Positions 1-41,148 of a stretch of 64,000 nt of DNA are shown here, piece by piece. The stretch spans positions 1 to 64,000 of the forward strand of contig CATLBH010000006.1 in assembly GCA_949878745.1 (NCBI GenBank), in the 5' to 3' direction. Position numbers and translations under genes: made by a program. The stretch comes from an uncultured Ruminiclostridium sp. GTDB taxonomy: Bacteria > Bacillota > Clostridia > Oscillospirales > Ruminococcaceae. The notes under the pieces are model-generated. The model did not search any database, was not told the origin of the DNA, and saw only the letters and a list, made by a program, of their open reading frames with translations. Each line of letters starts with the position of its first letter. Positions within the stretch are counted from its first letter, which is position 1.

Positions 1-127
1 GGCAAATGACCGAACACCTCGTGTGTTAAAATTTCTTGACTTGCGACAGCAAGCCGGCGAAATTTTGCCTTGTCCTCGACAAAATCTGCTCGAAAATCCA
101 CGCACCATTCCTATGTGGACAGGTTCT
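1..127. repeat. Family A repeat, partial copy (A4), cut by window edge
   Basis: GGCAAATGACCGAACACCTCGTGTGTTAAAATTTCTTGAC aligns with the interrupted copy at 40.8-41.1 kb; ends ATTCCTATGTGGACAGGTTCTA like the other family A termini. Confidence 0.7.
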
Positions 128-193
128 AAAGATTACACCCGAAACACTAATCTTTGGTCAACATTTTTTGTCTATAATCTGACCAAAGATTAG
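127..193 (-). repeat. Double-hairpin element, truncated copy
   Basis: TAAAGATTACACCCGAAACACTAATCTTTGGTCAACATTTTTTGTCTATAATCTGACCAAAGATTAG, same as part of the full copy at 34331-34442. Confidence 0.85.
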
Positions 194-355
194 GGAACCG
201 CTGATTAAATCGGTGTGTATATTGCGCGGCAGATTTTTCGTCAGATTGTACAAATTCGACGCAGGCGGGCTAGCGCCCGTCAAGGAGAAGTTGTGCAATC
301 TGACGGAAAATATGCAAGCAAGATGCGCGCATCCGATTTAATCAGTGGTTCCTTA
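193..355. repeat. Family D long-palindrome repeat, copy D1
   Basis: Termini GGAACCGCTGATTAAATCGG / CCGATTTAATCAGTGGTTCC; interior also imperfectly palindromic around GCGGGCTAGCGCCCG. Confidence 0.75.
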
Positions 356-18520: not shown

Positions 18521-18710
18521 TAAGGAACCACTGATTAATACTAATCCCTCTTTAAACTGTTGGATTAGTGTTTCGGGGGCAATCCCTTTTTAAACTGTGG
18601 GTATTACGTCAGTTTAAAAAGGGATTGGTATAAAACACAATCGCCCCGTTCAAATCAGCGTACTCACACAGCTGATTGTGTTGCGCTACGCTTTAATCAG
18701 AGGTTTCCTA
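18521..18710. repeat. Family D repeat copy D2 carrying a nested double-hairpin element
   Basis: TAAGGAACCACTGATTAA...TTTAATCAGAGGTTTCCTA outer termini; insertion at 18539-18630. Confidence 0.75.
18539..18630 (+). mobile_element. Double-hairpin MITE-like element, 92-bp copy
   Basis: TACTAATCCC...GGATTAGTGTTTCGGGGGCAATCCC...GGGATTGGTA with TAA direct repeats at 18536-18538 and 18631-18633. Confidence 0.85.
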
Positions 18711-34238: not shown

Positions 34239-34650
34239 TCATCTGTTTACGTACATTTTTTCATAATACTGCTTGTATTCCCCGTTTACAATATGTTACC
34301 ACCAAGCGCGGTTATCCAAATACCATTTTATACTAATCTTTAATCATATTGTAGACGAAGTCGGAAATATAATTAAAGATTACACCCGAAACACTAATCT
34401 TTGGTCAACATTTTTTGTCTATAATCTGACCAAAGATTAGTATTATGGTCTTTTTAATCCCGTCCTCGAATTTGGTCTCGGGCAGCCAGCCAAGATCGTT
34501 ATGAATTTTTGTCGGGTCAATCGCATAACGCATATCGTGACCATTTCTGTCGGTGACATAAGTAATTAAGCTTTCGGGCTTATTCAATTTCCTGCATATG
34601 CTTTTTACGATATCGATATTTTTCATTTCATTGGACAGACTATATCCAAC
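34239..34650 (-). pseudogene. rfbB: Decayed dTDP-glucose 4,6-dehydratase (rfbB) 3' end, split by a double-hairpin element
   Basis: Minus: ...[63 protein letters not shown] [element] KWYLDNRAWW*HIVNGEYKQYYEKMYVNR*. Confidence 0.85.
34331..34442 (-). mobile_element. Double-hairpin MITE-like element, 112-bp copy inserted in rfbB remnant
   Basis: TACTAATC...GATTAGTA with TTA direct repeats at 34328-34330 and 34443-34445 (TAA on the minus strand). Confidence 0.9.
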
Positions 34651-40793: not shown

Positions 40794-41148
40794 TAGAAAC
40801 TGTTCCATCAGGGATTGGCGCACGTCTATTCGGCATATTTTGCCGCTGACTTGCGTTTTGTCATTTGCTTTGTTGTCGGCGCATCCTTGCGCCGACTTTG
40901 GGCAAATTACTAATACTAATCCCTCTTTAAACTGTTGGATTAGTGTTTCGGAGGCAATCCCTTTTTATACCAATCCCTTTTTTTAACTGACGAAATACAC
41001 ACAGTTTAAAAAGGGATTGGTATAACACATCGTGCGTTAAAAATCCTTGACTGGCTTATCGCGTAAGCTGCCCGCCTGCGGATTTTTGCCTTGCCATCAA
41101 CAAAATATGCTCGAAAATCCCGCACACCATTCCTATTGGAACAATTTA
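40794..41148. repeat. Family A repeat copy A3, interrupted by a nested double-hairpin element
   Basis: TAGAAACTGTTCCAT...GCGCACGTCTATTCGGCATATTTTGCCGCTGACT... and ...CCTATTGGAACAATTTA match A1/A2 reverse complement. Confidence 0.8.
40914..41022 (+). mobile_element. Double-hairpin MITE-like element, 109-bp copy
   Basis: TACTAATCCC...GGGATTGGTA with TAA direct repeats at 40911-40913 and 41023-41025. Confidence 0.85.

Follow-up and report, generated by a model that had tools for sequence, protein, structure and literature searches.

A MITE-like family of two-hairpin elements with interchangeable palindromic stems in an uncultured Ruminiclostridium and its relatives

Introduction

Prokaryotic MITEs are short, AT-rich, non-coding and foldable elements, present in high copy number, located mostly between genes and flanked by target duplications (PMC10969869). 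The element described here was found in a 64,000-nt stretch of DNA (the window, positions 1 to 64,000 of contig CATLBH010000006.1, assembly GCA_949878745.1, from an uncultured Ruminiclostridium sp.) and resembles these MITEs in being short, AT-rich, non-coding, high-copy, mostly intergenic, foldable and associated with a duplicated target. It differs from them in that the shared terminal inverted repeat is only ∼4 bp (TACT/TACY), two separate palindromes surround a fixed junction, the stems are replaced wholesale between subfamilies and no parent IS was found. The closest precedent in spirit is bcr1 which, together with other repeats of Bacillus cereus (PMC6542083), is 100-400 bp long, limited to one bacterial group, present in up to 130 copies in the case of bcr1, and associated with a TTTAT motif and proposed site-specific recombination. 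As with bcr1, a clade-restricted repeat with features of a mobile element is observed here, whereas the TTTAT motif is absent from the ends, the flanks instead being TNA, and the TNA duplication and the two-hairpin frame with interchangeable stems set the element apart.

Two further groups share individual features with the element. A 3-bp duplication of the TNA/TWA type is common to the IS1031 group of IS5 and to PIF/Harbinger (PHIS superfamily, PMC4482050); the duplication found here is of this type, whereas the IS5-type transposase encoded by the genome has other ends, and none of this kind was found between TACT...AGTA termini. REP/BIME elements with their RAYT (PMC3733652) likewise consist of paired palindromic units sharing a conserved foot, but here the foot lacks a GTAG/CGTC tag, a real target duplication is present where REP/RAYT and IS200/IS605 systems have none, and several carriers have no match to a Y1 enzyme.

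Results

Four copies of a non-coding element of 78-126 bp lie in the window, three of them complete and one truncated (Table 1). The frame of the family is fixed, T-ACT-[stem 1]-AGTG-YTTYGG-GTG-YAA-[stem 2]-TTR-GTA, with the ACT foot, the junction AGTG-YTTYGG-GTG-YAA and the TTR-GTA end constant across subfamilies. The copies at 18.5 and 41 kb are of type A (92 bp) and the copy at 34 kb is of type B (112-113 bp); the two types have ends and junction in common but differ in their stem interiors. An earlier reading of the DNA, made from its sequence only and referred to here as the sequence-only reading, had delimited the three complete copies, and its coordinates were confirmed, as was the TAA on both sides of each copy when read in the element's own orientation. 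Its description of the stems as rearranged holds for type A compared with type B but not for the 41-kb copy, in which hairpin 2 contains a nested inverted family copy (TACCAATCCC at 40968); stem 2 of this copy is therefore not an ordinary stem but one rebuilt from two elements. The conserved junction, GATTAGTGTTTCGG, occurs four times in the window compared with 0.63 expected (≤2 mismatches), the fourth match corresponding to truncated copy 4. Single-strand folding z-scores of copies 1-3 are -8.7, -7.9 and -6.2, respectively.

Table 1. Features of the four family copies in the window
Feature	Position	Strand	Basis
Left target duplication of copy 1, TAA	18536..18538	+	Sequence; TNA at 103/129 independent sites
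Copy 1, type A, 92 bp, complete	18539..18630	+	Sequence, fold, 114.2 bits
Hairpin 1 of copy 1 (ACTAATCC/GGATTAGT)	18540..18569	+	Fold; counted pairs
Junction of copy 1, GTTTCGGGGG, unpaired between hairpins; family consensus GYTTYGGGTG	18570..18579	+	Sequence, fold
Hairpin 2 of copy 1 (CAATCCCTTTTTAAACTG/CAGTTTAAAAAGGGATTG)	18580..18627	+	Fold; both-side changes in 9/18 pairs family-wide
Right target duplication of copy 1, TAA	18631..18633	+	Sequence
Target duplication of copy 2 outside its 3' end (TAA on minus strand)	34328..34330	-	Sequence
Copy 2, type B, 112 bp, complete	34331..34442	-	Sequence, fold, 142.9 bits
Hairpin 2 of copy 2 (TAATCTTTAATTATATT/AATATGATTAAAGATTA)	34334..34382	-	Fold
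Junction of copy 2, GTTTCGGGTG	34383..34392	-	Sequence, fold
Hairpin 1 of copy 2 (ACTAATCTTTGGTCA/TGACCAAAGATTAGT)	34393..34441	-	Fold
Target duplication of copy 2 outside its 5' end (TAA on minus strand)	34443..34445	-	Sequence
Left target duplication of copy 3, TAA	40911..40913	+	Sequence
Copy 3, type A, 109 bp; hairpin 1 and junction intact	40914..41022	+	Sequence, fold, 78.6 bits
Right target duplication of copy 3, TAA	41023..41025	+	Sequence; unoccupied counterpart with one TAA is L138
Copy 4, type B remnant, both ends truncated by other repeats	about 124..195	-	Junction match and model match

Other repeats are present around these copies. Copy 3 is nested in a second dispersed repeat, having ends like GAAACTGTTCCAATAGGAA / AGAACCTGTCCACATAGGAAT, which is located at 40796-41148 and 1-130 of the window and also in locus L138. 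The ends of this repeat resemble TAAGAACCTGTACCAATAG, the terminal repeat that bounds the IS5-type transposase gene of the same genome (L112), and, as judged from this likeness, it is likely a MITE of that IS5-type element. A third inverted-repeat element, with ends GGAACCACTGATTAA...TTAATCAGTGGTTCC, occurs at 18524-18707, where copy 1 is nested within it, and at 194-352, where it truncates copy 4. A 73-codon remnant of a sugar-nucleotide dehydratase gene (GDP_Man_Dehyd; 34405-34626, minus strand) derives its last codons and stop from the outer end of copy 2.

In the 2.67 Mb genome, GATTAGTGTTTCGG is detected 113 times at ≤1 mismatch, compared with 0 for the reversed control, and at least 16 further copies have junction spellings beyond 1 mismatch. 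The genome contains at least 129 copies of this short, dispersed, non-coding repeat, which are located mostly between genes, often near coding starts or ends. Using a covariance model of type A, as had been proposed in the sequence-only reading, the family was detected in 10 of 71 genomes from the genus; genomes G000, G001, G016 and G092 each have tens of copies, and these per-genome counts are lower bounds, as no more than 60 candidates were scored in any genome. A gapped frame pattern, constructed to leave out types A and B and having no pairing requirement, was searched against one genome per species for 85,462 species and returned 67 stretches, every one of them from six MAGs. These carry the labels Oscillospiraceae, Clostridia or, probably in error, Bacteroides, and five can be matched to genomes of this genus. 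Viral contigs matching the pattern were rejected as chance matches in unpaired sequence, neither stem being present in the two distinct sequences involved. Stems like those of type A or B were not found in 24 genomes of the same order lying outside the genus. The family looks clade-restricted and patchy in its distribution.

Several observations concern the relatives themselves. The MAG titled 'Bacteroides sp.' (JAMPHV; L255, L262-L265, L269) groups with the genus of the window, its title probably being wrong, and other members of this genus are labelled Oscillospiraceae. In G001, a family hairpin lies just upstream of an apparent tmRNA gene and promoter (L342, about position 930), and a large serine recombinase gene (L330:6877-8487, minus strand) lies beside an asparagine synthase gene, apparently interrupted.

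Insertion is associated with duplication of the target. An exact 3-bp direct repeat flanks 104 of 129 independent sites (segmental duplicates removed), in an element set partly selected for pairing as detailed below, and the flanks are equal over 4 bp at one site. The duplicated triplets are TAA (70), TTA (24), TGA (8), TCA (1) and TTT (1), so that 103 are TNA; the TAA duplication originally proposed is therefore real as a 3-bp duplication but is not restricted to TAA. Triplets matching on both sides are TAA, TTA, TGA or TTT among burst copies in G001 that have the same sequence, indicating that the triplet is copied from the target rather than belonging to the element. Indeed, an empty site is observed in L138, where GGGCAAATGAC-TAA-CACAYCGTGTG carries a single TAA, compared with the occupied GAC-TAA-[element]-TAA-CAC at 41 kb. 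The duplication thus has a fixed length and derives from the target, for which the weak consensus is TT-TNA-RA. The central base of the duplicated TNA, in element orientation, is a purine at 78 sites and a pyrimidine at 25 (p=1.6e-7). Since a 1:1 ratio is expected if the two ends are equivalent, left and right ends must be distinguished at insertion, and the bias is not explained by gene orientation, as copies show no orientation bias relative to genes.

Bursts have occurred recently in two relatives. G001 contains at least 17 identically scoring 91-bp copies, those sampled being identical in sequence, and G016 contains at least 32 identical 112-bp copies, many at contig ends. In the G016 draft (L247-L310), about 30 contigs start or finish in one identical 112-bp element, so that the element itself limits the assembly. 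The proposal of a mobile MITE-like family is thus borne out by copy number, the empty site and the bursts; the outcomes that would have refuted it were not observed, since many more copies exist, stems are compensated and TAA repeats recur elsewhere.

Each hairpin is a near-perfect palindrome having an outer foot, TAC, at the cut end and an inner foot abutting the fixed junction. The RNAalifold consensus fold of type A missed hairpin 2, probably as a result of gaps, and a named structure, drawn from the sequence of one member, was therefore used to count pairs. Across 56 type-A copies, 10 pairs of the two-hairpin model are changed on both sides compared with 4.3 after shuffling (sd 1.3; 0/500), nine of the 10 residing in hairpin 2. 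A long-TIR model, in which the outer ends pair together, was rejected as it lacks an excess of compensated pairs, 4 being observed compared with 2.9 in shuffled alignments, with 137/500 shuffles as high. At least eight subfamilies, originating from several species, have unrelated stem sequences, for example TACTCTTTCCAAATAC..GTATTTGGAAAGAGTG, TACTATTAACCAATT..AATTGGTTAATAGTG and TACTGATCTTCGTC..GACGAAGATAAGTG, and yet each stem pairs with itself. Across eight subfamilies, pairing with the own arm is 96% (stem 1) and 95% (stem 2), and exchanging arms among subfamilies lowers these values to 58% and 55%. The own-arm percentages are biased upwards by the drawn structure and come from an element set, also used for target sites, in which at least 7/10 pairs were demanded per stem. 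Because of this demand, pattern matches lacking a pairing requirement were examined which, like the swapped-arm comparison, depend less on the drawn structure. Both stems are at least 80% paired in 32 of 39 distinct sequences from bacterial genomes; one stem is paired in the remaining seven, several of which are matches that overrun the element end, the rest being mostly type-A-like with a short stem 1.

The outer left and right arms are 66% alike within a subfamily and 47% between subfamilies, a modest resemblance which fails in two of the eight, and an inverted repeat common to all subfamilies is limited to the four or so terminal base pairs. Stem replacement affects both hairpins while junction and feet are unchanged. 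Combined, the pairing results agree with the view of the sequence-only reading that folded structure is selected or required, and suggest that the folded shape is needed for jumping.

Resident copies do not maintain their stems. Among 27 type-B copies, 22 stem changes were counted; each affects one side only, 12 break a pair, and none is two-sided. Decay without compensation indicates that structure is kept in the lineages that jump and not at each insertion and, as individual insertions decay, that the paired replacements arose in jumping lineages. This pattern favours a requirement acting during mobilisation over host function or continual palindrome repair as the origin of the paired stems; palindrome repair within an active lineage may also be their source. 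Lone hairpins 51-55 bp long, each foot being TAC, are flanked by a matching TNA duplication at about nine loci, and the two-hairpin frame may therefore not be strictly required. Lone hairpins can equally arise by internal deletion between similar 3' arms after insertion, and since the same product is expected, they do not prove movement of a single hairpin.

A full-length transposase or autonomous element bounded by TACT...AGTA, which the sequence-only reading had suggested as a target of search, was not found using DDE_Tnp_1, DDE_Tnp_4, rve and Y1 models. None of the DDE_Tnp_1, rve and Y1 transposases is present intact in all copy-rich genomes: in Pfam searches, DDE_Tnp_1 had no match in G034 and only a 102-codon fragment in G001, rve had no match in G008, G034 and G093, and Y1_Tnp had none in G001, G016, G034 and G093. 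TACT ends were absent at every DDE_Tnp_1 and rve locus inspected, and the IS5-type transposase of the genome (L112; DUF4096 and DDE_Tnp_1) has ends, TAAGAACCTGTACCAATAG, unlike those of the element. Scanning 1.24 Mb of loci for matching ends 0.5-4.5 kb apart yielded only two unrelated MITEs, forming a pair 3.5 kb apart in L245. Right-type ends 1 kb apart in C25, which at first appeared IS-like, also proved to be two MITEs, and a diverged left end in L036 is without a transposase. The driver may be missing from the assemblies, as several carrier genomes are draft MAGs that are 76-90% complete. Not every MITE has a known parent element. The constant 3-bp stagger, in light of how such enzymes are known to work, makes a DDE-type enzyme acting in trans the most likely driver.

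Discussion

The family is probably a non-autonomous, MITE-like DNA transposon composed of two hairpin modules and moved in trans by a transposase. By copy number and target duplication the element works like a MITE, albeit with almost no family-wide terminal inverted repeat, and its observed behaviour comprises TNA insertion with a 3-bp duplication, a preferred orientation, bursts of identical copies and retention of the frame while the stems are rewritten. In the proposed mechanism, an enzyme acting in trans, and most likely belonging to the DDE-type transposases, would make 3-bp staggered cuts at a weak TT-TNA-RA target and would recognise each end via the palindromic stem, either as a subfamily-specific sequence or as a shape, together with the TAC foot. 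As each end is a palindrome, a lineage changing its recognition sequence would have to alter both arms of both hairpins together, the outcome being subfamilies with new yet self-complementary stems. Inserted copies would then be dead weight and decay. A variant which we regard as rather doubtful is that the ends are read mainly as folded hairpins, cruciform or single-stranded, and not as TIR sequence, so that stems drift while shape, 3-nt foot and junction stay fixed, with a transposase outside the common families and a target polarity.

The paired stems could alternatively result from mutation, palindromes being made perfect through template switching or hairpin-directed repair, and not from a requirement for mobilisation. 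Long palindromes can self-correct, and stems in young subfamilies are almost perfect. Against this, the uncompensated changes in resident type-B copies indicate that correction does not act on inserted copies at a visible rate, and stem replacement covers both hairpins while sparing junction and feet, leaving this explanation improbable, though not negligible. That the family is an ordinary MITE of an IS5/PIF-type transposon, its hairpins being by-products of long terminal inverted repeats, would extend the IS5/PIF link that the sequence-only reading had raised as an inference. TNA is the kind of duplication listed for the IS1031 group of IS5, and IS5-type transposases are present in this genome. 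This link is not supported: the ends of the L112 element differ from those of the family and resemble those of another repeat family, G034 is devoid of a DDE_Tnp_1 match and the recently bursting G001 retains only the fragment, and long-TIR pairing has no more compensated changes than many shuffled alignments. We consider it unlikely.

Mobilisation of a REP/BIME-like hairpin pair by a Y1 tyrosine transposase (RAYT, IS200/IS605) acting on single-stranded hairpins would suit the strong single-strand folding, as Y1 enzymes recognise hairpins having a conserved foot and free stems. It is nevertheless very unlikely, since Y1 chemistry leaves no target duplication whereas the triplet here follows the target, and Y1_Tnp is unmatched in four carriers. 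Functional RNA or regulatory elements kept by the host, such as terminators or leaders, would explain why copies lie mostly between genes, often near coding starts or ends, and covary like structured RNA. Copies lack an orientation bias to neighbouring genes, however, no Rfam family matched in the window at the gathering score (0 matches), presence is patchy at 10/71 species and resident type-B copies are uncompensated, which makes host retention highly improbable. In L330, hairpin 1 and a junction-like stretch lie directly 5' of the large serine recombinase gene of G001 (Resolvase and Recombinase domains), with a family hairpin on the 3' side, an arrangement that would fit this enzyme as the driver. 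Conservative serine recombination is not known to leave a variable 3-bp duplication of the target. On the 3' side, the hairpin is a reversed type-A solo copy bearing a TTA duplication of its own, the one on the 5' side comes from a different subfamily, and chance adjacency is plausible at the copy density of the family; the arrangement was judged a coincidence and a role of the recombinase is exceedingly improbable.

The family offers a natural experiment on which features of a transposon end are read by its transposase, comprising at least eight subfamilies with unrelated stems, one frame and two fresh bursts. If the folded shape is what counts, this would be unusual for an element that makes target duplications; if instead each subfamily has its own transposase, the paired hairpins would record protein-DNA coevolution. 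The family also shows that compensation within stems need not imply a host RNA function.
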